From Pomphorhynchus laevis (lineage: Eukaryota > Acanthocephala > Palaeacanthocephala > Echinorhynchida > Pomphorhynchidae): 64,000 nucleotides of DNA. The stretch covers positions 1-64,000 of the forward strand of contig WNNJ02002766.1 of assembly GCA_012934845.2 (NCBI GenBank), given 5' to 3'. The position numbers and the translations under genes were made by a program. Below the pieces are notes generated by a model. The model was given only the letters and a program-made list of their open reading frames with translations, ran no database searches and was not told the DNA's origin. This document shows, piece by piece, positions 5,695-58,936 of this stretch; positions within the stretch are counted from its first letter, which is position 1; every line of letters begins with the position of its first letter.

Positions 5695-8600
5695 AAATGT
5701 GATTACAATAGAGATGGCTACAATAAACTTAGCAACAATAGACGTCGCTACAAGCAATCTGCCTACAATTGCGTGGCTTCAATAAAAAGGACTACAACAG
5801 AGATAACGACAATGAACGTTGAAACAATGGGCGTGGTTGCAATGGATGTAGAAACAATTGAAATCGCTAAAATGGGCGTGCAAAATGAACTACAATGGAC
5901 GTAGTTACAATGAACATAGTGCCAATGTATGTGAAAACAATTACAATCGTTATAATGGGCTTTATAATCAGAGCGATTACAATGGGTGTTGTTACAATAT
6001 GCGTTGTTAAAATGGGCGTGATTACAATGACCGTGAGTATAATAGGAGTGGTTATATAGCCGTAGCTATAATGGACGTGGCTATAATGGTCGTGGCTATA
6101 ATAACCGTGGCTATAATGGCCGTGGTTGTAATATCCGTAGCTATAATGACCATGGCTACAATAACCGTGGCTATAATAATCATGAGTATAATTGCGTGGC
6201 AATAATTGTAGTAGCTATAACGGTCGTGGCTATAATAACCGTTGCTGTAATGGCCGTGGCTATAATAGCCGTGGCTATAATGACCATGGCTATAAAAACG
6301 GTGGCTTTAATGGTCATGGCGATAATGGTCATGGCTATAATGGCCGGGGCTATAATGGCCGTGGTTATAATGGCCGTGGCTATAATGGGCGTTGCTATAA
6401 AGCCGTGACTATAATGGCCATAGCTATAATGGACGTGGCCATAATGGTGGTGGCTATAATGGTCGCGGCTATAATAACCGTTGCTGTAATGACCGTAGCT
6501 ATAATAGCCGTGGCTATAATGGCCTTGGCTATAATAGCCTGGCTATAATGGCCGTGCTTATAATGGCCGTGGCTATAATGGCCGTGGCTATGATGGCTGT
6601 GGCTATATTGGCCGTGGCAATAATGGCCGTGGCAATAATGGCCGTGGCAATAATGGCCGTGGCAATAATGGCCGTGGCAATAATGGCCGTGGCAATAATG
6701 GCCGTGGCAATAATGGCCGTGGCAATAATGGCCGTGGCAATAATGGCCGTGGCAATAATGGCCGTGGCAATAATGGCCGTGGCAATAATGGCCGTGGCAA
6801 TAATGGCCGTGGCAATAATGGCCGTGGCAATAATGGCCGTGGCAATAATGGCCGTGGCAATAATGGCCGTGGCAATAATGGCCGTGGCAATAATGGCCGT
6901 GGCAATAATAACCGTGGCAATAATGGCCGTGGCTATAATGACAGTGACTGTAATGGCCGTAGCTGTAATGGCCGTGGCTGTAATGGCCGTAGCTGAAATG
7001 GCCTTGGTTATAATGGCAATGGCTATAATGGCGTGGCTAAAATGGCCGTGGCTATTACGGCCGTGGCTATAATGACCGTGGATATAATGGCCGTGGCAAT
7101 AATAGCCGTAGCTATAAGAGGCGTGGCTATAAGAGCCGTGGCTTTAATGGCCGTGGCTATAATGGCCGTGGCTATAATGGCCGTGGCTATAATGGCCGTG
7201 GCTATAATGGCCGTGGCTATAATGGCCGTGGCTATAATGGCCGTGGCTATAATGGCCGTGGCTATAATGGCCGTGGCTATAATGGCCGTGGCTATAATGG
7301 CCGTGGCTATAATGGCCGTGGCTATAATGGCCGTGGCTATAATGGCCGTGGCTATAATGGCCGTTGCTATAATGGCTGTGACTATAATGTCCGTAGCTAT
7401 AATGGCCGTGGCTATAATAGCCGTGGCTATAATGGCCGTGGCTATAATGGCCGTGGCTATAATGGCCGTGGCTATAATGGCCGTGGCTATAATGGCCGTG
7501 GCTATAATGGCCGTGGCTATAATGGCCGTGGCTATAATGGCCGTGGCTATAATGGCCGTGGCTATAATGGCCGTGGCTATAATGGCCGTGGCTATAATGG
7601 CCGTGGCTATAATGGCCGTGGCTATAATGGCCGTGGCTATAATGACCGTTGCTATAATGGTTGTGGCTATAATGTCCGTAGCTATAATGGCCGTGGCTAT
7701 AATAGCCGGGGCTATAATGACCGTGGCTATAATGGCCGTGGCTGTAATAACCGTGGCTCTAATAGCCGTGGCTCTAATTGCCGTGCTATAATAAGCGTGG
7801 CTATAATGGCCGTGGCTCTAATGGCCGTGGCTATAATGGCCGTGGCTTTAATGGCCGTGGCTATAATGGCCGTGGCTATAATGACCGTAGCTATAATCGC
7901 CGTGGCTATAATGGCCGTGACTATAATAACCGTGTCTATAATGGCCGTGACTATAATGACCGTGCTTTAATAACCGTGGCTATAATGGCCGTGGCTCTAA
8001 TTGCGGTGTTATAATGCCCGTGACTATAATGGTTGTGGCTATAATCGCCGTTGTTAGAACGGCCGTGGCTATAATAAACGTGGCTTTAATGGCCGTGGCT
8101 ATAATAGCTGCAGCTATTATGGGCGTTGCTATAATGGCCGTGGCTGTAATGACCGTGGCTATAATGGCTGTGGCTATAATGGCCGTGGCTATAATGGCCG
8201 TGGCTATAATGGCCGTGGCTTTAATGGCCGTGGCTTTAATGGCCGTGGCTATAATGGCCGTAACTGAAATGGCTGTGGCTATAATGGCCCTGGCAATAAT
8301 AGCCTTGGCTGTAATAGCCGTCACTAAGTTGGCCGTGGCCATAATGACAGTGGCTATAATGACCGTGGCTGTAATGGCCGTGACTTTAATGGCCGTGGCT
8401 CTAATTTCCGTGCTATAATGGCCGTGGCTGTAATTGCTGTGGCTATAATGGTCGTAGCTATAATGGCCGTGGCTATAATGGCTTCGGCTATAATGGCGTG
8501 GCTATAATAACCGTGGCTATAATTGCCATGGCTCTAAGTGCCGTGCTAAAATGGCCTTGGCTATAATGACCAAGAATATAATGGCAGTGGCTATAATGGC

Positions 8601-9400
8601 AGTGGCTATAATGGCCGTGGCTATAATGGCCGTGGCTATAATGGCCGTGGCTATAATGGCCGTGGCTATAATGGCCGTGGCTATAATGGCCGTGGCTTTA
8701 ATGGCTGTGGCTATAATGGCCGTGGCTATAATGGCCGTGGCTATAATGGCCGTGGCTATAATGGCCGTGGCTATAATGGCCGTGGCTATAATGGCCGTGG
8801 CTATAATGGCCGTGGCTATAATGGCCGTGGCTATAATGGCCGTGGCTATAATGGCCGTGGCTATAATGGCCGTGGCTATAATGGCCGTGGCTATAATGGC
8901 CGTGGCTATAATGGCCGTGGCTATAATGGCCGTGGCTATAATGGCCGTGGCTATAATGGCCGTGGCTATAATGGCCGTGGCTATAATGGCCGTGGCTATA
9001 ATGGCCGTGGCTATAATGGCCGTGGCTATAATGGCCGTGGCTATAATGGCCGTGGCTATAATGGCCGTGGCTATAATGGCCGTGGCTATAATGGCCGTGG
9101 CTATAATGGCCGTGGCTATAATGGCCGTGGCTCTAATGGTCATTGCTATAATGGCCGTGGTTACAATGACCGTGGCTACAATGGCCGCGGCTACAATATC
9201 CGTGGCTACAATATCCGTGGCTACAATATCCGTGGCTACAATATCCGTGGCTACAATATACGTGGCTACAATATCTGTGGCTACAATATCCGTGTCTACA
9301 ATTTATGTGGCTACAATTTCCGTTGCTACAATAGAGACCTTCTTCAATTTACGTTGCTAAAGAAGACCTGACTACAATTGGCGTTGCTTCAATGAACTAT
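5695..9400. repeat. 15-bp minisatellite (unit GGCTATAATGGCCGT), about 3.7 kb
   Basis: Roughly 245 tandem copies of a 15-bp unit. Blocks at 7140-7370, 7400-7640 and 8600-9130 are nearly perfect. Block 6612-6910 is homogenised for a variant with GGCAATAATGGCCGT. The flanks 5695-6100 and 9170-9400 are degenerate (GCTACAATATCCGTG type). Because 15 is divisible by three, all frames stay open where the unit has no stop. The long apparent proteins (MAVAI, RPLLP, IIATA and GYNGRG repeats) are therefore expected without selection. I see no promoter, splice sites or unique flanking exon, so I do not call a gene. Confidence 0.97.
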
Positions 9401-10024
9401 AATAAACTAAATGTTAAAATGAATAAAACTTTTATTATAACAGTTTTTCCTTACCACCTAATACTGAACTCTATATATACAGAGCTCTTATATAGATGTT
9501 TATTACGACCGTAAATTATTGCTACTGCCATTATCATCTCATATAGGCATTTCCGGTGGTTTCTTCAGGAAGGTAAAATCTTCGAATTATAATTACCCTA
9601 CAAATTCTATTCTAGTTCTAGCCGATATTGAATCTTTATACGCACGTATGTTTACAAACAGAGGATTAGCGGCTACTAATCAAGCTATGAGCAGATCCAA
9701 TGACACTCCGATAAAAATAGTCTTCATAACATGTTTGTTAAAATTTATATTATCAAACTACTAGATTAAAATTTATATTATCAAACTACTAGATTAGCAT
9801 GTCAAACTACATTTTTATTGTCGATTTATCAACGATATTTTTACATTGTGCCCGACGACCGAGTAAGTTTAGATGAATTTCAGCAAATATCGAATTCATT
9901 TATTCTCAAACATCCATAAAAAACTAGCTCAACACAGATCGACTACTTAAATGTCCGACTAATGCATACGGAAACTCGTACGATAAGACGCGTATCGTAA
10001 GGTTTAATCAAAACTTATACATAT
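9401..10024. other. Noncoding spacer with one unrecognised short ORF
   Basis: Between the minisatellite and the SLC6 duplication. A plus-strand reading frame at 9519-9764 could encode 81 residues (contains ILVLADIESLYARMF) but matches no family I recognise and has no supporting context. A short direct duplication (AAAATTTATATTATCAAACT) occurs at about 9739 and 9768. Confidence 0.5.
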
Positions 10025-11850
10025 TCTAACGATTATATCAAATGTATTTTCGGCCTTGGTTGCAATGAGATTAAACACAAATTGTAAAATTTATAAGCGA
10101 CAATAACTAAGTTTTTCTAAAATACCTTTTAAAATACTTTTTAAAATAATTCAGATTGAATGTATATCCACGATATGCTTTCAAATACCAATAAATAATA
10201 TATATGGGGATCGGAGTCATGAGAGAGGTATCAAAGACCAGGTACACAACGATTTCATGAACATTTTTGTCTTTTCCGATATAATCACAGGAAACTGAAT
10301 AAACAAATGCGATAAGTAATACAAGGGGAACCATAAATATCCACGTAAATTTCATAATATACCCCGGATCTTCGTCGTCTTCTATTGAAATTTTAGTCAA
10401 GAACGACTTTAAACCGTATGCGAACGTGATTGTCCATAATTCAAATATAATAATCCAATATGTAAAAGGGGCGTGGTTATAATCTAGGATTTTTACTATG
10501 AACGAGAAACCCGTACAGGAAACACTTCGAATAGCAACAACCCCCAGAATTAAATTGACGATTAAACGACCATGTATTTGATTAAACTTTATATACTTGA
10601 AGTGTTCACTAAAGACTGAATACATTGCTTCTATTATGTTGGATATTGAGGTAATTAACAAAATTAGTATCAATAGATTATATACTATCAAAAAAAACCA
10701 ACCGTATGCCATGTAAGCAATTTGCTGAGGCAGTTTATCGAAAATGCAATTTAAAGTGTAGAAAATGCTAGGAATTTTGCCTGAATCATCGATTTCATTG
10801 AGATTTAAAGCAAAAGCAGCTATTGCTGTAAAAATAATTGAAATCACTACATCAACAAAACCAATTATATACGCAAACAGTTTCAAACTTGTAACATTAT
10901 CACCGGCATAACTTCCAAATACGATAAAAATTCCAGTTCCTAAAGAAGTTGAGTATATAGAAGAGTTAAGAGCTCGAAACCAGGATTGTAAGTTAATAAG
11001 ATTTTTCCATCCTTGCACTAAATAACAAGCTTAAGCTCTTTATAGAATGTTTAAGGCATGCGGTTTTAGCCAGAAGAATAAAAATGGCCGCTATGTTATA
11101 GAAACTATAAATGCAAGCCGATTTACCAATACTCAACGTACCCTTGTAGATGTGAGCGAAATTTAAAACTATAACAATAAGAAAGGCTGGAAAATAATCG
11201 GGATCGAGCCCAATTGCACAAATTTCATAGTCTTCCACATTACTCGAAAATATAGTTCTATTTTGTTTTACACTTGAAGCGTTAATTGACCAAATATTTG
11301 GATATTGAAGTGAATGGATGAAGTTATGTAAAGCAAATGCTGTAATTCCGCCGTAATATGAAAGCGAATAGATATTCATTGCCAGTGTCGAGTAACCGAC
11401 TCCTCTCAAACATGGGCACATATCTGTCCACATTCCGACATAAGATTTTCGGAATGATTGTCCAATTAATAACTCTAGATATATTACTGGAATTGATATA
11501 AATATAGTTACTATTATGTATTGTAGGATGTAATTTGCACCACCGAAAGCATACATATCCGGAATAAAGTTTATTAGATTTCCAAATCCCACCACTTCAC
11601 AGATGATTGCGAGTAAGTAGGTAACAGGACTTGACCACTTATTAAAATGTGACTTATTGCTAAACATTGTGTCTCTATGATTAAATTAAAAGATTTATTT
11701 GTACATTCTGTCTAAATTGCTTATTTTTTTAAATATCACGTTAACCCCCTCAACGACTTTTCAATTTTACATACACACGAAGTTAGACGCCATGCTCTAG
11801 TAATAACTTCGTCGACATTTTACGAATTCTAAAATCAAATTGCTTTTATC
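10025..11850 (-). repeat. Inverted duplication, left arm (partner 56905-58936)
   Basis: Homology extends beyond the SLC6 frame. The 3' flank at 10025-10106 matches 58853-58936 (reverse complement). The 5' flank at 11668-11850 matches parts of 56905-57292, including shared stretches such as AACTTCGTGTGTATGTAAA. The right arm carries about 200 bp extra between 57000 and 57200. The two arms are 45 kb apart, in opposite orientation. Confidence 0.9.
10107..11667 (-). pseudogene. SLC6-type transporter, frameshifted copy
   Basis: This is the near-identical inverted counterpart of the intact gene at 57293-58852. Reading minus strand from ATG 11667, the frame matches the intact copy up to about residue 217. 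Then one extra A (AAGGATGG here against AAGGTGG in the intact copy) near 11013 shifts the frame. The remaining C-terminal half continues in another frame down to the stop at 10107. Apart from this the copy is well preserved, with only about a dozen amino-acid differences seen by eye. The lesion is therefore recent, or is an assembly or sequencing error. If real, the product would be truncated within the helix 5-6 region and non-functional. Confidence 0.9.
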
Positions 11851-12184: not shown

Positions 12185-12440
12185 ACTAGTTTCAACATGC
12201 TGTAATACTTCAATGGTCTATTAAGAATCCAGCAAGTCGATTAAAAATTGCACGAAACATTCCTGCGAATTTATAGGCTCCTTACCGGTCTATCAATTAT
12301 CGAAATAGATTTTTTCAGATCAGGTCATTAAATTGGAGAACGGTAAGAAATTTATAAATTCAAAGGAATGTTTCGTGCAATTTTTCAACGACTTGCTGAA
12401 TTCTCTATAGACCATCCATATATTACAGCATGTTAAAAAG
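12185..12440. repeat. Inverted-repeat (MITE/foldback-like) element
   Basis: Arms of about 100 bp at roughly 12190-12290 and 12340-12440 are inverted copies. Both contain AACATGCTGTAATA, GGTCTAT, CAGCAAGTCG and ATTGCACGAAACATTCCT in order. The loop is about 50 bp. No coding sequence. It could be a non-autonomous DNA transposon; target-site duplications are not evident. Confidence 0.75.

Positions 12441-12614: not shown

Positions 12615-12698
<84 letters not shown>
12615..12698. repeat. (AT)n microsatellite, left border of palindromic array
   Basis: Pure AT dinucleotides directly abutting the first hammerhead-bearing repeat unit. A matching tract borders the other end at 14112-14188. Confidence 0.97.
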
Positions 12699-12703
<5 letters not shown>

Positions 12704-12774
12704 TTGATTCAACCAGGACTGTCGATTACACCTATCTGCTTTTCTCTATATATAGAGAATTTCATGCTTCTACA

Positions 12775-12823
12775 CTGCAAGACGGCGTACCGTTTCGGCT
12801 TTGAGAAGCCTCATCAGTTGCAG
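12775..12823 (-). ncRNA. Hammerhead ribozyme, type I (array copy 1)
   Basis: Minus-strand reading: stem I CTGCAA paired with TTGCAG; core CTGATGA; stem II GGCTT/AAGCC with loop CTCA; GAAA; stem III ACGG/CCGT with loop TACG; cleavage triplet GTC. Every conserved core position of the hammerhead is present, so self-cleavage after the C of GTC is expected. Short 4-bp stem III is typical of retrozyme and Penelope hammerheads (established knowledge). Confidence 0.93.
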
Positions 12824-13125
12824 CAATACAGTGTATACACATGAAAAACATACTATATATAGATTAAAGCAGAAAGAATTCACTATATGCTAATTGCATG
12901 ACGTAGCTTGCGCTTTCGAAGTCAATGCAATGCAGTGAATTCTTTTCAGTGTAATAGACATCAGCGGGATCACTAAATGACCAATATAATAGATTACAAA
13001 GGAAACAGTACCGCCGCCTGGGATCCTCGCAGGACCAATATATAAATAAAAGGTTTGATTCAACCAGGACTGTCGATTACACCTATCTGCTTTTCTCTAT
13101 ATATAGAGAATTTCATGCTTCTACA

Positions 13126-13174
13126 CTGCAAGACGGCGTACCGTTTCGGCTTTAAGAAGCCTCATCAGTTGCAG
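13126..13174 (-). ncRNA. Hammerhead ribozyme, type I (array copy 2)
   Basis: Same structure as the copy 351 bp upstream. The only change in the catalytic module is in the stem II loop (CTTA instead of CTCA), which is neutral for the core. All stems and the GTC site are intact. Confidence 0.93.
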
Positions 13175-13464
13175 CAATACAGTGTATACACATGAAAAAC
13201 ATACTATATATAGATTAAAGCAGAAAGAATTCACTATATGCTAATTGCATGACGTAGCTTGCGCTTTCGAAGTCAATGCAATGCAGTGAATTTTAGACAT
13301 CAGCGGGATCACTAAATGACCAATATAATAGATTACAAAGGAAACAGTACCGCCGCCTGGGATCCTCGCAGGACCAATATATAAATAAAAGGTTTGATTC
13401 AACCAGGACTGTCGATTACACCTATCTGCTTTTCTCTATATATAGAGAATTTCATGCTTCTACA

Positions 13465-13513
13465 CTGCAAGACGGCGTACCGTTTCGGCTTTGAGAAGCC
13501 TCATCAGTTGCAG
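13465..13513 (-). ncRNA. Hammerhead ribozyme, type I (array copy 3)
   Basis: Identical in core and stems to copy 1. It lies in the partial unit next to the palindrome centre, about 65 bp from the first inverted copy. Confidence 0.93.
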
Positions 13514-13577
13514 CAATACAGTGTATACACATGAAAAACATACTATTTTCATATTTTCATGTGTATACACTGTATTG

Positions 13578-13626
13578 CTGCAACTGATGAGGCTTCTCAA
13601 AGCTGAAACGGTACGCCGTCTTGCAG
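13578..13626 (+). ncRNA. Hammerhead ribozyme, type I (inverted copy 4)
   Basis: Plus-strand copy. CTGATGA core, GAAA, GTC and stems I and III intact. Stem II is GGCTT/AAGCT, so the pair next to the core becomes a G-U wobble, which may weaken activity. Confidence 0.9.
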
Positions 13627-13928
13627 TGTAGAAGCATGAAATTCTCTATATATAGAGAAAAGCAGATAGGTGTAATCGACAGTCCTGGTTGAATCAAACC
13701 TTTTATTTATATATTGGTCCTGCGAGGATCCCAGGCGGCGGTACTGTTTCCTTTGTAATCTATTATATTGGTCATTTAGTGATCCCGCTGATGTCTATTA
13801 CACTGAAAAGAATTCACTGCATTGCATTGACTTCGAAAGCGCAAGCTACGTCATGCAATTAGCATATAGTGAATTCTTTCTGCTTTAATCTATATATAGT
13901 ATGTTTTTCATGTGTATACACTGTATTG

Positions 13929-13977
13929 CTGCAACTGATGAGGCTTCTCAAAGCCGAAACGGTACGCCGTCTTGCAG
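13929..13977 (+). ncRNA. Hammerhead ribozyme, type I (inverted copy 5)
   Basis: Plus-strand copy with perfect stems I, II and III, CTGATGA, GAAA and GTC. 351 bp from copy 4, equal to the monomer length on the left arm. Confidence 0.93.
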
Positions 13978-14109
13978 TGTAGAAGCATGAAATTCTCTAT
14001 ATATAGAGAAAAGCAGATAGGTGTAATCGACAGTCCTGGTTGAATCAAACCTTTTATTTATATATTGGTCCTGCGAGGATCCCAGGCGGCGGTACTGTTT
14101 CCTTTGTAA

Positions 14110-14111
<2 letters not shown>

Positions 14112-14188
<77 letters not shown>
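14112..14188. repeat. (AT)n microsatellite, right border of palindromic array
   Basis: Pure AT tract that interrupts the last inverted unit at the word TGTAATCTATATAT, where intact units read TGTAATCTATTATATT. The tract may have grown from this short AT stretch. Confidence 0.97.
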
Positions 14189-14232: not shown

Positions 14233-14595
14233 TATAGAAAAACTCCTCTACTGGAACCCGGCAACAATCGGTTCAACTCATAAATATAGTAGTATGAGCC
14301 ATCTCGTTGGCGTTTTGGCTGCCTGTGTGACCTTAGAAAAAGAGTATTTTCGATAAATTGCTAGTGTTCCAGATGCAAAAAGCTCGTGAACAGGAAACTT
14401 GTTTACCATACCATCTCTATCCATATCATGCGATTCATTTGTTGCTGCATTGTGTCGTTCGTTTGATGCTTAAAATGATTCGGCATATATTTTACAGTTT
14501 GCATCAAAGATGCTTATGTATCGACAGCAGTTTTTAAAATATTGCCGTATTACAATGGAATCCTAGACCGTTGTTATCAAGAAACCATATATATG
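14233..14595. repeat. Penelope-type repeat unit, relative of 46000-46880
   Basis: Shares GCATCAAAGATGCTTA, the CGGCATAT word, GATAAATTGCT and the ATGAGCCATCTCG..GTTTTGGCTGC block with the tandem units at 46000-46880. No coding sequence. Assigned to the Penelope-like terminal-repeat group because of the neighbouring elements (inference). Confidence 0.6.
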
Positions 14596-15960
14596 CTAAA
14601 TAACTGGACTTCGATCATCAGCTCCATCAGTCTAATGTATCACTCCGAGACGCTCCTAACCACCCAGCAGTCATCGTCAGTCGGATGAAGTGGTTAGGGT
14701 GCGTTTCGACTGCTTTTGTGATAACTGTAAAGACACCAGCAATTCCTCACGATGCTAAACGAAACTCAGGTGCATAAAGCGTTTTTACTGGCTTGTTGCG
14801 TGTGTGGACCTTCTAGTTATTCTTTATATGCACAAATGCGTATCCGTTGGTTACGAGGGCACTGAATTTCTCACAGGATTCCGAAAGGAATGCGTTTTTT
14901 ATAAATTGTAAGTGCGAAAAATCGCTTGAAACTGGTCCATGAGCCAAAACTGGCTACGATTGATTTTAACTCCATATGTGCTGCTAAATAACTGAACTTC
15001 GATCATCAGCTCCATCAGTCTAATGCATTACTCCGAGACGCTCATAACCACTAAGCAGTCATCGTAAGTCGGATGAAGTGGTTAGGGTGCGTTTCGACTG
15101 CCTTTGTGATAACTGTAAAGACACCAGCAATTTCTCACGATGCTAAACGAAACTCAGGTGCATAAAAGTGACCTCGTATCTGTTCGTTACGAGGTCACTG
15201 AATTCTTACAGGAGTCTGAAAGGAATACGTTTTTTATAAATTGGTAATGCGAAAAATCGTTTGAAACTGTGGTCCAATAGCTAAAACTGGCTACGATTGA
15301 TTTTAAATCCATATGTGCTGCTAAATAACTGGACTTCGATCATCAGCTCCATCAGTCTAATGTATCACTCCGAGACGCTCCTAACCACCCAGCAGTCATC
15401 GTCAGTCGGATGAAGTGGTTAGGGTGCGTTTCGACTGCTTTTGTGATAACTGTAAAGACACCAGCAATTCCTCACGATGCTAAAAGAAACTCAGGTGCAT
15501 AAAGCGTTTTTACTGGCTTGTTGCGTGTGTGGACCTTCTAGTTATTCTTTATATGCACAAATGCGTATCCGTTGGTTACGAGGGCACTGAATTTCTCACA
15601 GGATTCCGAAAGGAATACGTTTTTTATAAATTGGTAGTGCGAAAAATCGCTTGAAACTGTGGTCCAGGAGCCAAAACTGGCTACGATTGATTTTAAATCC
15701 ATATGTGCTGCTAAATAACTGGACTTCGATCATCAGCTCCATCAGTCTAATGTATCACTCCGAGACGATCCTAACCACCCAGCAGTCATCGTCAGTCGGA
15801 TGAAGTGGTTAGGGTGCGTTTCGACTGCTTTTGTGATAACTATAAAGACACCAGCAATTCCTCACGATGCTAAACGAAACTCAGGTGCAGAAAGCGTTTT
15901 TACTGGCTTGTTGCGTGTGTGGACCTTCTAGTTATTCTTTTGGAATCCCTACGTATTCCT
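14596..15960. repeat. Tandem repeats, ~340-390 bp units
   Basis: The block AACTGGACTTCGATCATCAG recurs at about 14602, 14990 (variant), 15327 and 15718, each followed by GAAGTGGTTAGGGTGCGTTTCGACTGC and a CACCAGCAATT..TCACGATGCTA segment. Spacing alternates near 390 and 337 bp. A fifth, diverged block sits at 16640-16800. On the minus strand the GTGCGTTTCGACTGC block reads as CGAAACGCAC, reminiscent of the GAAAC arm of the hammerheads in the next array, but the CTGATGA arm is not preserved. Probably terminal repeats of the minus-strand Penelope-like element at 17.5-18.1 kb. Confidence 0.85.
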
Positions 15961-16447
15961 TTCGGAATCCAGTGAGAAATTTAGTGCCCTCGTAACCACC
16001 GGATACACATTTGTAGGCACCATAACATAAAGTGCCCATTTCATAGGCACCTTAGCACACGCTTAAACAGTGTTTAAAGCTCGAAAAACCGAACTACACT
16101 TAATCTGAATCATCGAAGAGAATTTAGCATAAACTCTGTGTATGGCAGCGCGTATTCCAGTTTAACCATGCATCAGGCACTAAATTCCTTTTTATAGAAA
16201 TGCTGTATTACAGGGACACCTTTAAAAATTCAAATATATAAAATATATATTGTTATTACACCTGCCCTAGTACACCAAATGGTGTACTCGTGAATAAATC
16301 ATTATGTTTTCCTCACAAGGAGGCATAAACACCAGGCAGCATTCTATACATCATCATCAGACCAAGAAATAGAACCGAATTATTCTCGCAATATTCAAAG
16401 TCGCTACGTATGCCCAGTCATTCTAAGTGCGACGACAGACTTCAACA

Positions 16448-16489
16448 ACGGTAGACGCGTTTTGCACTAACTGAGCTCATAAGTACCGT
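16448..16489 (-). ncRNA. Degenerate hammerhead ribozyme, family B copy 1
   Basis: Minus strand: stem I ACGGTA/TACCGT is perfect and GTC is kept, with palindromic stem III ACGCGT. The core is mutated, however: CTTATGA instead of CTGATGA, and GCAAAA where GCGAAA is expected. Expected to be inactive. Confidence 0.65.
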
Positions 16490-16862
16490 GACTTTAATAA
16501 TCTGCCATAGGCATCTTAACACACGCTTAAACAATGTTTAAAGCTCGAAAATATATCATAAATATTTCGAAAGATCGCTCTCAACTGTGGTCCAGTAGCC
16601 AAAACTGGCTACGATTAATTTTTAATCCATATTTGCTGCTAAATAACTGGAGTTTGATCATCAGCTCCATCAGTCTAATATATCACTCCGAGACGCTTCT
16701 AGCCATCCAGCAGTTATCATCAATCGGATGAAGTGGTTAGGGTGCGTTTCGACTTTATTTTGTGATAACTGTAAATACACCAGCAATTTCTCACGATGCT
16801 AGACGAAACTCAAAGTCGCTACGTATGCCCAGTCATCCTATGTGTGACGACAAACTTTAACA

Positions 16863-16904
16863 ACGGTAGACGCGTTTCGCTCTTACGGTACTCATCAGCA
16901 CCGT
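16863..16904 (-). ncRNA. Hammerhead ribozyme, family B copy 2
   Basis: Minus strand: stem I ACGGTG/TACCGT (one G-U), core CTGATGA intact, GAAA intact, stem III ACGCGT and GTC intact. Stem II region GTACCGTAAGAGC pairs poorly (G-C and U-G only), so activity is doubtful. A six-base self-complementary stem III is typical of hammerheads that act as dimers (established for Penelope and satellite hammerheads). Confidence 0.75.
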
Positions 16905-17324
16905 GACTTCAATAATTATCAATTGGCACCTTAACACACGCTTAAACAGTGTTTATAGCTCGAAAAACAGAACTACCTTTAATCTGGATCATCAAAGGGA
17001 ATTTAGCATAAGCTCTATGCATGACAGTGCGTATTGCAGTTTAACCATGCATCAGGCACTAAATTTCTTTTAATGGAAATGCTATTTTACAGGGGCACTG
17101 TCAAGTGCACAAATATATAAAATATAATTTGATGTTACATCTGCCCTGGGGCATTGAATGGTGTACTCGTGAATAAATCACTGTTTTCTTCACAAGGAGG
17201 CATAAACACCAGGGAGCATTCTATATATCTTCATCAGACCAAGAAATAGAACCGAATTATTCTCGCAATATTCAAAGTCGCTACGTATGCCCAGTCATAC
17301 TATGTATGACGACAAACTTCAACA

Positions 17325-17366
17325 ACCGCAGACGCGTTTCGCTCTAACAAAGCTAATCAGTACTGT
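17325..17366 (-). ncRNA. Degenerate hammerhead ribozyme, family B copy 3
   Basis: Minus strand: core CTGATTA (conserved G changed to T), good stem II GCTTT/AGAGC with loop GTT, GAAA, stem III ACGCGT, GTC. Stem I has one mismatch. Core mutation should abolish cleavage. Confidence 0.65.
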
Positions 17367-17449
17367 GATTACAAGGATTATTCATATGCACCTTAAAAAC
17401 GCTTAAACAGTGCTTAAAGCTCAAAAACGGAACTACCCTTTTCATTTAT

Positions 17450-23146: not shown

Positions 23147-23600
23147 AATCATACCTAGTGTAGCATTCTATCGTTAAATTTATCGACATTATAATTGACA
23201 TAAATTTACTTTAAAAGTGACTTATTGTGAAGTTAAGGCATTATTATCCCACGATGTAAAATATATTACATTTAAAGCACAGTTTAATGTTTATACTTTA
23301 CATTTTTGAATACATTTGTTCATGATATGGTTTACAGTTAAAATCAAGTTACTATGAAACCGCTGTACATTAAAACATTTAAGGTACGACTTTAACGATA
23401 AGTGAGCGCTATTATGTTTTTGGACGATACAACGCTTATGACAATTTAAAGTTTGTTTATTTTTATTTAAACTAAGACATTTCTAATATACTCAGTGATA
23501 GCATAATAAATCGAAACAATGTTTAGCTACGATTAAATAATCTTTAAATACAATTTAAATAATAAACTATTATCAATTGTTTAAAAATAATTATCTGATG
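23147..23600. other. BAF60 3' flank, AT-rich
   Basis: Likely 3' UTR and spacer. Possible polyadenylation signals AATAAA at about 23508 and 23562. No other feature seen. Confidence 0.5.
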
Positions 23601-23638
23601 TCTTTATTTAGAAAAAAGTTTCATTACGAAAGAATCCT

Positions 23639-24100
23639 ATGAAAGAAGTTAATTATAATGATTTAAATATAAACACAACATATGAGCGTAGTGATATAAG
23701 TTTAGAAACAATTATAACAGGTCATTGTTCTATAATGGATAAAAAAGGCATAAAGGTTGAATCAGATAATAAAACTATACCTATATTATATTGGAATCCA
23801 AAATTACATAAAAATCCAATAAAACCTAAGTTCATATGTAGTGCGTTTAAATGTACATTAAAACCACTTTCTGTCTATATGAATAAAATACTTAAAGTAA
23901 TTAAAGCACACTTTAAAAAATATTGCAAGGTAATCGAAATTAATACTGGTATAAAACACTATTTCAGTATTAATTCTACAAAAGAATTTTTAGAACAGAC
24001 AAAAGGAATAAATTTTCAAAATATAAATACATACGATTTTAGTACGCTTTATACAAATCTAGATTTAGTAGATATTAAAGAAGCGTTAATTAATTAATTA
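23639..24100 (+). pseudogene. Penelope-like reverse transcriptase N-terminal part
   Basis: A 152-residue frame with PKLHKNPIKPKFICSAFKC, LKPLSVYMNKILK and NTYDFSTLYTNL: the PKxHK, RFI and YDFSTLYT blocks of Penelope-like RTs. It breaks off into a TTAATTAA run just before the GVAMGSPLGP block. It is a different sequence subfamily from the minus-strand fragment at 17.5-18.1 kb (far more Lys/Ile/Asn-rich). AAATTA-rich codon usage suggests an AT-biased element or long decay. Confidence 0.88.
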
Positions 24101-24160
24101 ATTAATTAATTTATAATTAATTAATTAATTTTTAATTAATAAATTAATTAAAAATTAATT
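24085..24160. repeat. TTAA-rich simple repeat
   Basis: Overlapping TTAATTAATTAAT runs in both orientations. It interrupts the RT frame. Confidence 0.85.
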
Positions 24161-24223
24161 TATCTTATATTCGGAAAAAGATATACAAATATATGTTATA
24201 ATAACAATAAGGCCTATAGATAT

Positions 24224-24272
24224 ATACCTTAATAGGTATAAAGGTATTCAACCTTTATACCTATTAAGGTAT
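24224..24272. repeat. Perfect 22-bp-stem hairpin
   Basis: ATACCTTAATAGGTATAAAG and its exact inverted complement are separated by a loop of about 5 bases (ATTCA). Lies inside decayed Penelope-like sequence; could be a replication or template-switch foldback. Confidence 0.85.
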
Positions 24273-24289
24273 AAAGGTTGAATAAGATA

Positions 24290-25975
24290 ATAAAACAATA
24301 AAAGTATACTAATAAAACTATACCTATATTATATTGGAATTCAAAATTACATAAAAATCCAATAAAACCTAGGTTCATATGTAGTGCTTTTAAATGTACA
24401 TTAAAACTCTTTCTGTTTATATTAATAAAATAATTATAAGAATTAAAAATTATTTAAGAAATATATTAAGGTTATTGAAATTAATATTGGTATAAAACAC
24501 TTTTCCATAATTAATTACACATTTATCGTATTTTCTTCTTCATCTGTCTCAAGCTTCTTACTTTTATAACGCATTTATTCTACTTCATAACACTTTGTCG
24601 ACCACAGTATTATGTGGGTGACATTTACCATATATCCACTTATCGGAAGTGAGATCAGATATCCGTACTGAAAATCATTGACGCGATTCCCTCCGACTGA
24701 AAAATCCAGGTTTTTTGTAATTTCAGCGAATTAAACAGACTATATTTTAGATAATGAAAATTAAAGCATTTACAATCTAAAAGTTCTGTGTGTTTGGAAT
24801 ACAGGACTGTATTTGGAATATAGTATAATATAAAATACTAGTATATTATAGTATTTATAAATTAAAATAAAAAATTAATAAAAAATTATTATATTAATAA
24901 TTCATTAATATTTTTATCATTAATAAAAATATTAATGATAAAATACATCATTTTATTAAATGATGTATTATTTTGCATGATAATTCATGTACACTATTTA
25001 ATATAGAATATAATACATAAAATAATGAAATTTTAGGAATTGCAACAATTTGTATCGATATTTGTAACAAAAAATATCTAATTATCCTCAAAAATGAATT
25101 ATTTAAGTATCCTTATTCTTAATAAAACCAATATTAATGATAAAGAAGGTATATATCTAGATATGAACATTAAATTAACATCAATTAAAACTACTTTTAA
25201 TTTATATCATAAAGATTTCGATATATTGATGATATATGTGTATTTAACTCTAATAATTTTTATTCAATAAGCGAACAAATTTATCCAGGTAGACTCACTC
25301 TTAATAAAACCAATATTAATGATAAAGAAGGTATATATCTAGATATGAACATTAAATTAACATTAACTAAAACTACTATTAATTTATATCGTAAAGATGA
25401 CATATTTAAATTTACAAGAAACATATTTTTGCATGAGCATTCATGCATACCATATAATATAAAATATAATACATAAAATAATGAAATCTTAAGAGTTAAA
25501 AATAATATTGCAACAATATATAATGATATTGCCTTTCTTCAAAATCATTTAAAAAATTTAATAGATGCATATTTTAAACTAGATTACTATAAATTAAATT
25601 TAAATCAGTTAAAACTATTATTAATTTATATCTTAAATATGACATATTTAAATTGACAAGAAACCTATATTTTCGTGAGCATTCATGCATGCCATATAAA
25701 CATTAAATTGATATCAATTAAAACTACTTTTAATTTATAACGTACAGATGACTAATTAAAATTTATAGGAAACATATTTTTGTATGATCATTCATGCATA
25801 TCATATAATATAAAATATAATACATTAAATAATGAAATTTTAAGAATTGCCATAATATGTATTAATATTGATTTTCTTATACTTAATATAATTTAATAGA
25901 TACATATTTTAAAGTATGCTACTAAGAATAAAATCAAACAGAAAATCGTAAAATATATAAATGAATTCAATAATA
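24290..25975 (+). pseudogene. Scrambled remnants of the same Penelope-like element
   Basis: 24300-24500 repeats the KTIPILYWN..KLHKNPIKPRFICSAFKC block of the 23.6-kb copy. 25230-25260 includes RYIDDICVFNSN (the YxDD box, intact here as YIDD). 25090-25200, 25285-25390 and 25590-25740 are repeated versions of TLNKTNINDKEGIYLDMNIK and of INLYRKDDIFKF..NIFLHEHSC, matching the YLDLNI..YDKRDDF region downstream of YxDD in Penelope-like proteins. The same piece appears at least three times in direct order. Many stops; not functional. 24880-24975 holds AT-rich inverted repeats. Confidence 0.7.
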
Positions 25976-26245
25976 TTAAAAAGAAATTTAAAATCATTAG
26001 CGGAAAATTTTTATGGACGGATAATAATATACTTCGGATTAGAATAAGATACACTAGATTATCAAATTTCATCAGAGGATATACGTCATTAGCATATGTT
26101 TTGCCCCGCTGCTATGTTGTGTTGAGGAATACGGAATGAAACCTGATAGCATATCAGTTTCTTGTAATGACTTCTAATTCTTATTATGATACATCGTCTA
26201 TTATTTATTAGTCGATTCATAAAAATTAACTTTTCAAATTAATTT
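25976..26245. repeat. Structured dispersed repeat, copy 1
   Basis: Shares, with 51890-52080, 61060-61290 and 61620-61880, an ordered set of words: GGAAAATTTTTATGGA, TTAGAATAAGATAC, TTTCATCAGAGGA, TACGTCATTAGC, CCCCGCTGCTATGTTG, GAAACCTGATAGCATA and GACTTCTAATTCTTATT. It follows directly after the Penelope-like remnants and may be their 3' part. This copy has several helix-breaking changes. Confidence 0.75.
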
Positions 26246-26299
26246 TAAATTTTAACTTGAAATAAGTTATTGAAATTTTGATGGCTATTTTATTATGCA

Positions 26300-45999: not shown

Positions 46000-46880
46000 T
46001 GTATCATAGAGATTGCATCAAAGATGCTTAATAACAACGGTCCATGATTTTATTGGAATACGGCAATATGTTGAAAGCTGATGTCGGTACTTAACTGGAC
46101 TACACTTAACGATCTGCATACTATTCGTCAGTACTATATGTCATAGATGATTGGCAGCGCTCATCAGTACTATGAACCATCTTTATGACGTTTTGCCTGC
46201 TTGACTGGCCTTTGAAAAGGAGCATTTCCGATAAATTGCTTAAGTTCCAGTGGCAAAAAGATGCTTAATAACAACGGTCCATGATTCCATTGGAATACGG
46301 CAATATGTTGAAAGCTACTGTCGGTAATTAACTGGACTACACTCAATGATCAGCATGCTATTCGTTACTACTAGACGTCAGGGATGATCGGCAGCGCTCA
46401 TAAGTAGTATAAGCCATCTCGATTACGTTTCGGCTGCATGTGTGACTTTTGAAAAAGAGCATTTAAGATAAATTGCTTGATATATATTGTATATATAGCT
46501 TTATATATAAATTGCTTTCTATATTATACTGGTGCAGGGATTTGCTGAGTAAACAACGGTCCAGGATTTATCACGAAATACGGCGTTCATAGAAAATTGT
46601 TTTGCTTGAATGACTGGACTTTGATTCAAAGTGTTATATATTACAAAGGAAACAGCACCGCCACATGGGATCCTCAACTTCCTAAATGTTGTGGGACCAA
46701 CAGGAAAGCTAACGGAAGCAACAGGTAGCAATAGCATCGGATGGAAACGATCACGTTGTAAATGTTACTATTCGTTACTACTAGACGTCAGGGATGATCG
46801 GCAGCGCTCATAAGTAGTATGAGTCATCTCGATGACGTAAAAGGAAACAGCACCGCCGCCTGGGATCCTCAACTTCCTAA
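46000..46880. repeat. Penelope-type tandem repeat units
   Basis: The block GATGCTTAATAACAACGGTCC repeats at 46023 and 46260 (as 20-base word), spacing about 240 bp, each followed by a CGTCA..GATGATCGGCAGCGCTCAT segment (46150, 46380, again at 46785). 46640-46690 and 46840-46880 carry the GGAAACAGCACCGCC..GGGATCCTCAA block shared with the 12.7-14.1 kb hammerhead array. On the minus strand CTGATGAGCGCTGCC (46165) and GACGTC followed by TAG look like broken hammerhead arms, but no GAAA lies between them. Confidence 0.75.
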
Positions 46881-53200: not shown

Positions 53201-54644
53201 TACCCAACCTAGTTCGTGGTTTGCGAGAGAGACTGGCGGACATTCTATTTTATAAGGACCCTCCTTTAGCAGTTGATTTTGCCGTAACTAACCCACAACA
53301 AAATGCGTATATTTCCATAGCTTCTGAGATCCCTGGTTATGCCAGGGATCTCAGAAACCATCTTGAACTTTAACAGATATTTCTTTAAGTGAATTCGTTT
53401 AATATTAACATCAATTATCTATACATATTATATGCTTTATCTCTAATTTATGTATGTATACATTATGCTATATTCTACCTTTTAGTAACGTGTACAATAT
53501 GCATGCAATTTAAAAAAGAAATAATTATCAAAAATTGAAATATCTATCACATAAGACGTTAATTATTAAAGTCTATTTTATAAGGACCCTCCTTTAGCAG
53601 TTGATTTTGCCGTAACTAACCCACAACAAAATGCGTATATTTCCATAGCTTCTGAGATCCCTGGTTATGCCAGGGATCTCAGAAACCATCTTGAACTTTA
53701 ACAGATATTTCTTTAAGTGAATTCGTTTAATATTAACATCAATTATCTATACATATTATATGCTTTATCTCTAATTTATGTATGTATACATTATGCTATA
53801 TTCTACCTTTTAGTAACGTGTACAATATGCATGCAATTTAAAAAAGAAATAATTATCAAAAATTGAAATATCTATCACATAAGACGTTAATTATTAAAGT
53901 CTTAATTATTATGATGTTATCATTTATGTCCACTCAATACAGCCCATACGAAGATAAAAAATCTGGATTGAATTTGAAAATTATATTTTTGTTAAACAAA
54001 AATATCGGTTAATACCCTAAGATATAGAGAAGTAGGACTAGTATCTGCTAAATTGTATAACAATTTAATTGTATGTCATATATTGCAATTTATTGTAATA
54101 CATTGAAATATTGTAAAAATATTCTAGTATATTTTATAATATTGAAATATTGTGTTAAAATATTAAATTGAACGAATTTCCAGCTTCATTTCGATATTTT
54201 TATTACTCAAAGCCAGCAAAATATTTGACTATACGAAATTGTATTAATATTACAAAACATTGATGAATTCTATTTTAGTCAATACAAACTAGGGGCTCTG
54301 CTATTATTGAGGCAAGAAAGTTAAGTTCAGCTCTTTCCGCAGCTAAAGCAGCTTGCGATCATATGAAAGACTGGTGGAATGGAACTGAGGTATAAATTGT
54401 ATTTTTTTAGATTATTTCTTAATTATGTTGCTTTTAACAGCAATACGCATCAATGGTAGTTCAAAGCGATGGATCTTATGGTGTAGAGAAGGGGTTGTTT
54501 TTCAGCTTCCCGTGTACTATAAAGAATAAGGAATGGCAAATCGTTCAGGGTATACAATTTGACAGCTGGGCTCAATCTATGATTGACGCAACAATGAAAG
54601 AACTTATCGAAGAAAAGGAAATGGCTCTACATAGTATTGCCTGA
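47239..54644 (+). CDS. MDH1: Cytosolic malate dehydrogenase, six exons
   Basis: NAD-dependent oxidation of malate to oxaloacetate in the cytosol (malate-aspartate shuttle). Exons by reading frame and GT-AG sites: 47239-47340, 47394-47490, 52262-52437, 52488-52793, 54279-54389, 54441-54644. Total 996 nt, 331 residues plus stop, close to the family's ~333. Introns are 53, 4771, 50, 1485 and 51 bp. Motifs: Rossmann [11 protein letters not shown] near the start; [15 protein letters not shown] (substrate arginines); [16 protein letters not shown] (catalytic Asp, Arg); [11 protein letters not shown] (catalytic His); [21 protein letters not shown]-terminal [14 protein letters not shown]. All catalytic residues are present and the frame is open, so it is probably functional. 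Introns 2 and 4 carry repeats and retroelement pieces. Confidence 0.94.
48483..48526 (-). ncRNA. Degenerate hammerhead-like motif, family F
   Basis: Minus strand CTGAAGA-T-GCTAAC-ATAG-GCTAGC-GAAA: a valid CTGANGA core, stem II of five pairs with one mismatch, then GAAA. Relatives: plus 48797-48830 (CTGAAAA, GAGA) and minus 49950-49985 (CTGATGA, GGAAA). No convincing stem I. Low confidence. Confidence 0.35.
48641..48719 (-). ncRNA. Hammerhead-like ribozyme, family E copy 1
   Basis: Minus strand: stem I GGCCACA pairs over seven positions with TGTGGTC (one G-U). Core TTGATGA (first C changed to T). A long 33-nt stem II region beginning GAC. GAAA. Hairpin AGCCCC/GGGGCT then GGCGTC as GTC cleavage triplet. 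The core change should impair cleavage. Support comes from three relatives with different single core changes, implying a CTGATGA ancestor. Confidence 0.5.
49347..52261. other. Remainder of MDH intron 2, AT-rich
   Basis: Simple AT-rich sequence with TTATTTTATTA runs (50550-50770) and no conserved exon. A short plus frame at 51380-51613 ([19 protein letters not shown]) is unrecognised. 51890-52080 is the structured dispersed repeat. The end of the intron is TTTACTATTTTAG-like at 52250-52261. Confidence 0.6.
51890..52085. repeat. Structured dispersed repeat, copy 2
   Basis: Full set of family words. Compared with the copy at 61.7 kb, GGCCCC..GGGGCC is replaced by GACCCC..GGGGTT, a change that keeps pairing on both sides. 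Confidence 0.8.
52950..53373 (+). pseudogene. Retroelement C-terminal nuclease-like fragment in MDH intron 4
   Basis: The open frame ending at 53373 reads [39 protein letters not shown] and [12 protein letters not shown]. The GGH..RHDxLRD then D..AVDxxVT layout parallels the IRHDIVRD..RFDIV..FLDICVFN tail at 19.7-19.95 kb, so it is the C-terminus of a retroelement polyprotein. The N-terminal part (52957-53090) is not recognisable. 53089-53106 may be a boundary. Confidence 0.65.
53244..53899 (+). repeat. 328-bp perfect-looking tandem duplication
   Basis: Units 53244-53571 and 53572-53899 both begin TCTATTTTATAAGGACCC and end TTAATTATTAAAG; no difference was seen by eye. The unit includes the 3' end of the retroelement frame and its flank. 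It lies in MDH intron 4. Confidence 0.95.
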
Positions 54645-56745: not shown

Positions 56746-57292
56746 GTTATAAAATCGCTATATTTGTAGCATCAAACTTATCAAACTTTAGCGAGTTTTA
56801 AAGCAAAATAATTAGTTAAAAGCAGATAATGGTTATCGTCGCAAATTTTCGAGATTATTTACTTCTTTAGTGCGACACTAAAATTTTACGTTCATTCCTA
56901 AAATCAATTCGATTTTAGAATTCATGAAATGTCGACAAAGTTATTACTAGAGCATGACGTCAACTTCGTGTGTATGTAAATTATATTTTAAAATGAAATT
57001 ATAACTCGAATAAGTGACTGTGATACATTCCTAAATACAGAGTTAAACGACATTTATGAATTATTATTTTTATAAATTGTTATTTTCAACCTTAATACTT
57101 ATAAAATACACATAGCGGCCTAAGCGCATTCAGATAAAAGATCGACAATATCAATGTGATATTTTAAAAGTTAAGAAGCAGTAATATGAATTTATGTGAA
57201 AAATCTATGACAAGGTTAACGTGATATTTAAAAAAATAAGCAATTTAGACAGAATGTACAAATAAATCTTTTAATTTAATCATAGAGACACA
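56746..57292. other. Upstream flank of intact SLC6 gene
   Basis: 56755-56850 is an inverted copy of the 26.8-kb repeat. 56905-57000 and 57200-57292 match the upstream flank of the frameshifted SLC6 copy; 57000-57200 is unique to this side. GTTAACGTGATATTT..ATAAGCAATTTAGACAG just upstream of the ATG is conserved between copies. Confidence 0.75.
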
Positions 57293-58936
57293 ATGTTTAG
57301 CAATAAGTCACATTTTAATAAGTGGTCAAGTCCTGTTACCTACTTACTCGCAATCATCTGTGAAGTGGTGGGATTTGGAAATCTAATAAACTTTGTTCCG
57401 GATATGTATGCTTTTGGTGGTGCAAATTACATCCTACAATACATAATAGTAACTATATTTATATCAATTCCGATAATATATCTAGAGTTATTAATTGGAC
57501 AATCATTCCGAAAATCTTATGTCGGAATGTGGACAGATATGTACCCATGTTTGAGAGGAGTCGGTTACTCGACACTGGCAATGAATATCTATTTGCTATC
57601 ATATTACTGCGGAATTACAGCATTTGCTTTACATAACTTCATCCATTCACTTCAATATCCAAATATTTGGTCAATTAACGCTTCAAGTGTAAAACAAAAT
57701 AGAACTATATTTTCGAGTAATGTGGAAGACTATGAAATTTGTGCAATTGGGCTCGATCCCGATTATTTTCCAGCCTTTCTTATTGTTATAGTTTTAAATT
57801 TCGCTCACATCTACAAGGGTACGTTGAGTATTGGTAAATCGGCTTGCATTTATAGTTTCTATAACATAGCGGCCATTTTTATTCTTCTGGCTAAAACCGC
57901 ATGCCTTAAACATTCTATAAAGAGCTTAAGCTTGTTATTTAGTGCAAGGTGGAAAAATCTTATTAACTTACAATCCTGGTTTCGAGCTCTTAACTCTTCT
58001 ATATACTCAACTTCTTTAGGAACTGGAATTTTTATCGTATTTGGAAGTTATGCCGGTGATAATCTTACAAGTTTAAAACTGTTTGCGTATATAATTGGTT
58101 TTGTTGATGTAGTGATTTCAATTATTTTTACAGCAATAGCTGCTTTTGCTTTAAATCTCAATGAAATCGATGATTCAGGCAAAATTCCTAGCATTTTCTA
58201 CATTTTAAATTGCATTTTCGATAAACTGCCTCAGCAAATTGCTTACATGGCATACGGTTGGTTTTTTTTGATAGTATATAATCTATTGATACTAATTTTG
58301 TTAATTACATCAATATCCAACATAATAGAAACAATGTATTCAGTCTTTAGTGAACACTTCAAGTATATAAAGTTTAATCAAATACATGGTCGTTTAATCG
58401 TCAATTTAATTCTGGGGGTTGTTGCTATTCGAAGTGTTTCCTGTACGGGTTTCTCGTTCATAGTAAAAATCCTAGATTATAACCACGCCCCTTTTACATA
58501 TTGGATTATTATATTTGAATTATGGACAATCACGTTCGCATACGGTTTAAAGTCGTTCTTGACTAAAATTTCAATAGAAGACGACGAAGATCCGGGGTAT
58601 ATTATGAAATTTACGTGGATATTTATGGTTCCCCTTGTATTACTTATCGCATTTGTTTATTCAGTTTCCTGTGATTATATCGAAAAAGACAAAAATTATA
58701 ATGAAATCGTTGTCTACCTGCTCTTTGATACCTCTCTCATGACTCCGATCCCCATATATATTATTTATTGGTATTTGAAAGCATATCGTGGATATACATT
58801 CAATCTGAATTATTTTAAAAAGTATTTTAAAAGGTATTTTAGAAAAACTTAGTTATTGTCGCTTATAAATTTTACGATTTATTTTTAATCTCATTGCAAC
58901 CAAAGCCAAAAATATATTTGATATAATCGTTAGAAA
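56905..58936 (+). repeat. Inverted duplication, right arm (partner 10025-11850)
   Basis: Carries the intact SLC6 gene plus both flanks shared with the left arm. The homology ends near TTTGATATAATCGTTAGAA at 58936. Confidence 0.9.
57293..58852 (+). CDS. SLC6 (neurotransmitter:sodium symporter) family transporter, divergent
   Basis: Intact 519-residue membrane protein, no intron. Twelve-helix LeuT-fold symporter family. Helix 1 reads EVVGFGNLINF (24-34): the Na+-ligand Asn30 of the GxGN motif is kept, but the family's gate arginine (N-x-x-R-F-P) is Asn33. GGANYI corresponds to GGGAFL, then IYLELLIGQ (helix 2) and GVGYSTLAMNIYLLSYY (helix 3). The extracellular loop has NAS and NRT glycosylation sequons. 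Helix 6 region is LGTGIFIVFGSYA. Shorter than typical members (~600), with short termini. Substrate cannot be told; loss of the arginine suggests an unusual or non-transporting member. Paired with a frameshifted inverted copy at 10-11.7 kb. Confidence 0.88.
   Translation: MFSNKSHFNKWSSPVTYLLAIICEVVGFGNLINFVPDMYAFGGANYILQYIIVTIFISIPIIYLELLIGQSFRKSYVGMWTDMYPCLRGVGYSTLAMNIYLLSYYCGITAFALHNFIHSLQYPNIWSINASSVKQNRTIFSSNVEDYEICAIGLDPDYFPAFLIVIVLNFAHIYKGTLSIGKSACIYSFYNIAAIFILLAKTACLKHSIKSLSLLFSARWKNLINLQSWFRALNSSIYSTSLGTGIFIVFGSYAGDNLTSLKLFAYIIGFVDVVISIIFTAIAAFALNLNEIDDSGKIPSIFYILNCIFDKLPQQIAYMAYGWFFLIVYNLLILILLITSISNIIETMYSVFSEHFKYIKFNQIHGRLIVNLILGVVAIRSVSCTGFSFIVKILDYNHAPFTYWIIIFELWTITFAYGLKSFLTKISIEDDEDPGYIMKFTWIFMVPLVLLIAFVYSVSCDYIEKDKNYNEIVVYLLFDTSLMTPIPIYIIYWYLKAYRGYTFNLNYFKKYFKRYFRKT

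Follow-up and report, generated by a model that had tools for sequence, protein, structure and literature searches.

A head-to-head retrozyme array in Pomphorhynchus laevis with an insertion anatomy fitting target-primed copying onto both strands of a TA-rich target

We analysed a 64,000-nt stretch of the Pomphorhynchus laevis genome (contig WNNJ02002766.1, positions 1 to 64,000; hereafter the window), in which five hammerhead ribozyme motifs lie in a palindromic tandem array between two (TA)n tracts. The array is probably a single retrozyme insertion, formed when a helper reverse transcriptase, most likely Penelope-like, copied retrozyme RNA onto both strands of a TA target; we put the probability of this reading at roughly 0.7. 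At the level of sequence, the window and related loci display the ribozyme motifs, a family of copies, two preferred end sites, TA flanks, outward-facing sense 3' ends and independent palindrome centres. The retrozyme class is already known, and what is new here is the anatomy of the insertion. We found no report of this anatomy in the literature on retrozymes, hammerhead ribozymes and Penelope elements, although this is a weak statement.

Hammerhead motifs and array architecture

The features of the array are as follows. Hammerheads were identified by secondary-structure scan, Rfam and inspection of the letters, and (TA)n tracts by TRF; unit coordinates are counted from position 13621.

12615-12699, no strand: left (TA)n tract, presumed target, about 42 copies, joining the left arm after unit position 82 (site A)
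12699-13546, minus: left arm, about 2.5 turns of the unit, sense 5' end at unit 276 and sense 3' end at unit 82 (site A)
12775-12823, minus: type I hammerhead, intact
13126-13174, minus: type I hammerhead, intact, with C to T in loop II
13465-13513, minus: type I hammerhead, intact
13547-13553, no strand: palindrome centre, 7-nt filler between the two 5' ends
13554-14114, plus: right arm, about 1.6 turns of the unit, sense 5' end at unit 285 and sense 3' end at unit 143 (site B)
13578-13626, plus: type I hammerhead, stem II closed by a G-U pair owing to C to T at its base
13621-13971, plus: complete 351-nt monomer, cleavage site to cleavage site
13929-13977, plus: type I hammerhead, intact
14112-14188, no strand: right (TA)n tract, about 38 copies

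An earlier, sequence-only reading had placed five hammerheads here, three on the minus strand and two on the plus strand, and the letters bear this out. Its description of every unit as carrying a complete ribozyme holds for four of the five, but not for the plus-strand copy with the stem II change. A strict scan of both strands of the 64-kb window, which required the core CTGANGA / GAAA, three stems and a proper cleavage site, matched these five motifs only, and returned 0 matches in 20 controls made by shuffling the window in 500-base blocks. In the Rfam check that had been proposed, no family matched the window at its gathering score; with an E-value threshold, Hammerhead_HH9 (RF02275) matched all five motifs, scoring 24.5-29.2 bits against a gathering score of 52, with E-values from 2.8e-4 to 8.9e-3. 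When 111 bases with a single copy were searched by themselves, the match to RF02275 had E 8e-6. Rfam miRNA matches around 13477-13614, all below gathering score, were rejected as the palindrome read as a hairpin. A weak Hammerhead_1 match at 59583-59626 (20.5 bits, E 2.4), which the strict scan missed, is probably due to chance.

The two arms meet at the 7-nt filler, in agreement with the orientation switch at about 13545 recognised earlier, and the flanking AT tracts noted at that time are the two (TA)n runs. The unit length of about 351 bp is exact for two units, but a third has lost 12 nt and measures 339 nt. Cleavage sites do not coincide with the start or stop of either arm. Pairs of long inverted repeats in the array are 98-100 percent complementary; the two arms differ by 1.5 percent and neighbouring units by 0.5 to 4 percent. 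That the unit encodes no protein was upheld, the array having no ORF of at least 110 aa; read as a circle, the unit is open over at most 70 codons, of which 11 come after the first ATG. The longest A run is 4, i.e. the unit has no poly(A) stretch. Beside the array, at 12190-12438, lies a MITE-like inverted repeat with 102-nt arms that are 83 percent complementary.

A retrozyme family across the genome

The alternatives offered for the array were a retrozyme or a Penelope pseudo-LTR, and the data favour the former. Judged from its sequence, the array family has the tested features of metazoan non-LTR retrozymes. Each unit carries a canonical type I hammerhead, though one scoring below the Rfam gathering threshold; the monomers are tandem, non-coding and within the size and GC limits of the class (351 bp against about 150-450 bp, GC 0.387 against a ceiling of 45-50 percent); copies are many and dispersed, ranging from dimers to long multimers (arrays C13 and C604); and the unit RNA is predicted to be highly self-paired. 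According to the parts of PMC7229834 drawn on here, metazoan non-LTR retrozymes share all of this: one type I hammerhead per unit, non-coding tandem repeats of 150-450 bp, low GC, high copy number and strongly self-paired unit RNA. The terms inverted, opposite orientation, head-to-head, TA repeat, microsatellite and twin are absent from the main text of that paper. A further likeness is to the Schistosoma W-elements, tandem satellite-like units of which some have functional hammerheads; in the sections of PMC8490949 available to us, their way of moving is left open and the word retrozyme is absent.

The pseudo-LTR alternative was not supported and was discarded: between the unit and the compared stretch of a genomic Penelope-like copy (L045) the best match has E 0.43, which is not significant, and no hammerhead turned up in the searched stretches of this copy (L045 by pattern, L045 and L046 by Rfam). 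The array itself, having no ORF of the length given above, does not encode the reverse transcriptase and GIY-YIG endonuclease of a Penelope-like element.

The 351-nt unit is predicted to fold as a long rod of -117.6 kcal/mol, against -81.4 +/- 5.3 for 100 dinucleotide shuffles (z -6.84). The hammerhead fold lies about 10.7 kcal/mol above this minimum, which uses a competing stem between the 3' strand of stem I and an upstream stretch. The circular unit RNA may therefore hide its ribozyme, in contrast to most animal circles, in which the hammerhead is free to fold according to the portion of PMC7229834 consulted. This is only a hint, since the energy model ignores the contact between loops I and II.

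The genome search suggested earlier for further copies was productive: the 249-Mb assembly contains 394 exact cores (220 forward and 174 reverse), while the reversed pattern gave 0. We fetched 33 stretches around 100 of the 394 core places and annotated unit pieces by BLAST, which yielded three long or divergent arrays (C13, C604 and C99) and 25 dispersed loci. Adding the window brings the dispersed loci to 26, of which 25 are distinct, C316 being a duplicate of C127. Among the loci listed, arms range from 43 nt to multi-kb, and 25 of 40 arm pieces are longer than one unit. An intact hammerhead by a strict rule is present in 84 of 159 near-family units. C99 (L017-L019) is a divergent retrozyme satellite, whose pieces each share about 72 to 93 percent identity with the unit; its ribozymes are mostly decayed (3 of 50 intact), and it contains both head-to-head and tail-to-tail switches.

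Adjacent units differ by a median of 8 and 10 percent in the big arrays; at dispersed loci the figure is 0.9 percent for C260, with medians elsewhere from 2.3 (C255) to 9.8 (C41) percent. Between the two arms of a head-to-head locus the difference is 13 to 21 percent in C386 and C530 and 1.4 to 7 percent in seven others, against a median of 10 percent between loci. Young loci such as C260, C200, C19 and the window are only 0.6 to 1.5 percent apart from each other; low divergence between arms or units is therefore no proof of a single template. The template could have been a circle or a uniform multimer, including a multimeric linear RNA, both being possible. Core conservation across 27 loci (0.010 against 0.064, P 0.0017) was set aside because the loci were chosen by exact core match; in the three large arrays alone it is weak (0.025 against 0.052, P 0.07).

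Outside this genome, three exact core matches in IMG/VR were considered as viral relatives and rejected: the hammerhead scan accepts only two of them, each contig has a single motif, and no tandem repeats were found in L001, the one viral contig checked for them. The core search in prokaryote genomes gave 0 matches.

Insertion ends and TA targets

Outer sense 3' ends were counted without C13, C604 and the divergent satellite C99, without the duplicate C316, and without inner pieces, a 47-nt piece of C386 and the 35-nt piece of C404; no 3' end was counted for the right arm of C188, which runs up to the end of its contig. The 34 ends comprise 16 at site A (unit 82-94), 10 at site B (129-148) and 8 elsewhere. 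Within 33 of the 351 unit positions thus lie 26 of 34 ends, with a nominal binomial P of 1.7e-20 for site windows that were drawn after the ends had been seen and for BLAST ends that a TA flank pulls into the TA run. The TA-rich runs of the unit had been listed before any other locus was inspected (C 27-34, A 81-95, B 141-149 and D 271-278), and on these pre-set intervals A and B hold 23 of 34 ends, C and D none. A (TA)5 lies at most 40 nt outside 10 of the 34 ends, compared with 96 of 8814 background positions.

A genome-wide search for ends, using a 14-nt anchor before each run followed by (TA)7 within 12 nt, gave 29 places for A (91 raw), 13 for B (39 raw), 1 for C (1 raw) and 0 for D (0 raw). 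Anchors in the fetched loci number 125 and 112 for C and D, against 72 and 63 for A and B. Runs C and D are perfect TATATATA runs and better TA matches than A and B, and since the ends shun them, it is not simple microhomology that chooses the ends. The better guess is accessibility or protein recognition. In the predicted circular fold the probability of being unpaired is 0.82 at A, 0.49 at B and 0.0 at C and D, which pair with each other, against a mean of 0.33 for the whole unit. For the family majority sequence the corresponding values are 0.62 at stretch A and 0.45 at stretch B. The two sites lie about 55 nt apart in the unit.

Between A and B, 40 nt of unit 104-143 recur at 46636-46675 and 31 nt at 46840-46870, inside other repeats. 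This stretch is absent from the Penelope-like stretch L045 and from the 26 dispersed loci outside their retrozyme pieces, and was therefore left out of the argument; it is possibly a shared recognition module. A second tandem repeat family, with units of 337 and 390 bp and no convincing Rfam match, starts just past the right TA tract (14240-17440). At C387 and C495 a retrozyme arm abuts an AT-rich stretch of this same family, which may be a recurrent target of retrozyme insertion.

Head-to-head loci

The head-to-head arrangement had been thought unusual; in this genome it is recurrent. Arms joined head-to-head with their 3' ends facing outward occur at 9 of the 25 distinct loci examined (C404, C19, C188, C346, C386, C387, C530, C588 and the window), C386 having a further 47-nt piece between its two arms. 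The centres lie at different unit positions, and these loci therefore look like independent events as opposed to copies of one palindrome. No tail-to-tail arms were seen among the 25 distinct loci, apart from a 35-nt inverted scrap in C404 at the 3' end of its right arm. The genome-wide end lists brought the head-to-head loci to ten by adding C2065, and also contained two tail-to-tail pairs, C1816 and C2567, whose two arms share one TA tract in either case. The excess of head-to-head loci has P 0.039 for 10 against 2 and P 0.002 for 10 against 0, counts that include the window, itself chosen for this feature.

Five head-to-head loci (C386, C530, C588, C2065 and the window) have both ends inside the site windows, and every one of them has one end at A and the other at B, with a chance probability of 0.014-0.024, C588 qualifying only through the widely drawn B. 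A near miss is C346, whose ends at 101 and 75 are both near A and would not fit. Furthermore, the two 5' ends lie at most 9 nt apart in 4 of the 10 head-to-head loci, where 0.54 would be expected (P 0.0014); the window, with 5' ends at 276 and 285, is one of the four.

Candidate helper element

A decayed member of the candidate helper family lies in the window itself, outside the array:

23599-26254, plus: decayed Penelope-like reverse transcriptase copy, from ORFs and matches to the genomic copy L045
23599-24102, 24310-24516, 25216-25593 and 25694-26254, plus: pieces of this decayed copy

The corresponding family is abundant in the genome, with 9487 candidates, of which 150 were scored, and open frames of up to 908 aa. 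The motifs DFSTLYTNL and RYIDD, read by eye, may mark a Penelope-type reverse transcriptase. The candidate pieces gave no reverse transcriptase family in Pfam and no such match in the PDB, and a single-sequence structure model of the enzyme (pLDDT 29.8) was too poor for a fold search. A genomic copy, C6, has an N-terminal GIY-YIG-like stretch recognisable by eye (VVYLIQC..QYIGKT..R..H and E..FWIKTLNS) as well as a CxC motif. Four PDB hits were obtained for the N-terminal stretch, including two I-TevI chains (E 0.23 and 0.45), the best being the unrelated regulator CpxR (E 0.024). Pfam found no GIY-YIG domain in the candidate pieces, and the structure model of the stretch (pLDDT 33.4) was likewise too poor for a fold search. 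The Penelope-like class of this candidate helper was thus assigned by eye, without profile or model support.

Naiad elements reportedly carry an N-terminal GIY-YIG-like stretch and a CxC motif in the order seen in C6, show a bias towards microsatellites and include inverted insertions; they are not known to carry hammerheads. The local candidate resembles Naiad-type elements in its GIY-YIG-like N-terminal stretch, as read by eye, in the CxC motif and in a very high copy number. Since no significant sequence is common to the unit and L045, the helper enzyme is assigned by the insertion pattern only.

Insertion model and alternatives

Cleavage, RNA circles, the enzyme with its Penelope link and the following order of steps are inferred. 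A transcript of tandem units would cut itself at each hammerhead, and retrozyme monomers and multimers, linear or circularised, would accumulate. A helper reverse transcriptase, most likely that of the abundant Penelope-like element, would then break a TA-rich target, and the two 3' DNA ends of the broken target would prime on the retrozyme RNA. Copying would begin inside the RNA, mostly at the predicted accessible sites A or B, and each strand would be extended, often over more than one turn of the unit. Joining of the two cDNAs 5' to 5' (sense) would leave a head-to-head array with its sense 3' ends facing out into the TA tract.

This anatomy fits target-primed reverse transcription of both strands, by analogy with a Penelope-like element in vitro. 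In the portion of PMC11167929 used here, the purified green anole protein cuts and extends both target strands, prefers AT-rich DNA, and starts internally at two adjacent RNA sites; the start site has no homology with the target and is the same for both strands, and the hammerhead of the element is dispensable for insertion in vitro. For rotifer Penelope insertions, the parts of PMC3846280 consulted describe most as head-to-head, with palindromes at the junction that are ascribed to self-priming; the same paper cites a preference of Penelope elements for AT-rich simple sequence and describes the rotifer ones as able to move foreign sequence in trans. Head-to-head insertions and AT-rich targets are common to Penelope-like elements with GIY-YIG and the arrays described here, as are, on the present model, the extension of both strands and internal starts from two neighbouring RNA sites. 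They differ in that the anole start site is unlike its target, whereas A and B resemble the TA target, and in that Penelope-like elements code for protein, while the retrozyme unit codes for none and shares no significant sequence with L045.

A LINE could in principle have mobilised the retrozyme, with twin priming combined with internal priming by TA-ended DNA giving the inverted structure, and other reverse transcriptase ORFs, with RVT_1 matches and LINE-like by eye, are indeed present in the window. Twin priming likewise yields 5'-to-5' junctions. We nevertheless regard a LINE as rather unlikely, given that the unit has no poly(A) stretch, that in the window each arm is longer than one turn and has its outer end at an internal site, and that ends avoid the two perfect TATATATA runs. 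Slightly less probable, in our estimate, is a snap-back route, in which the end of a single cDNA folds over and primes synthesis of its complement to give a palindrome. The near-equal 5' ends at four of ten head-to-head loci, the window included, are what this would produce, but at the other six the 5' ends are 33 to 160 nt apart on the unit circle, and the second arm should return to the same end site, yet the sites differ in each of the five loci whose two ends are at A or B.

Spread as satellite DNA by recombination or extrachromosomal circles, with the hammerhead as a passenger, would account for the long arrays C13, C604 and C99, the last with its few intact ribozymes. Recombination would not be expected to give dispersed copies with two preferred end sites, TA flanks and a single prevailing type of inversion, and we hold this explanation to be very improbable. 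The near-perfect inverted repeat also raises the question of an assembly artefact from a fold-back read. This seems scarcely credible: the arms carry private changes, different end sites and different unique flanks, and arrays built alike, but centred elsewhere in the unit, occur on other contigs.

Returning to copying onto both target strands by a helper enzyme, a narrower version would have one ribonucleoprotein copy one multi-unit RNA into both strands at once, using A on one strand and B on the other and often the same 5' end. The A/B discordance and the near-equal 5' ends speak for it; C346, the wide B window, the equality of the two strands in the anole system and the low divergence among young loci go against it, and we entertain it tentatively, leaning against. 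If true, it would make Penelope-type enzymes movers of animal retrozymes. In the part of PMC7229834 drawn on here (Cervera and de la Pena 2020), the enzyme that moves animal retrozymes is left open, and Penelope-like elements are named as a strong candidate on the grounds of shared hammerheads, tandem copies and co-existence. The copies described here would record the insertion reaction itself. Because their features resemble those measured for a Penelope-like protein, the question of the mover becomes a direct biochemical test with a natural 351-nt RNA.

Other features of the window

Just downstream of a malate-dehydrogenase match, two tandem copies of 328 bp at 53244-53902 are 100 percent alike, reflecting either a very recent duplication or an assembly error. 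A 3.3-kb minisatellite with a 15-bp unit at 6011-9302 is open in several frames. Two inverted neurotransmitter-symporter-like gene copies (10024-11763 and 57197-58935) are 98 percent identical, one having an open frame of 525 aa and the other being split over two frames.
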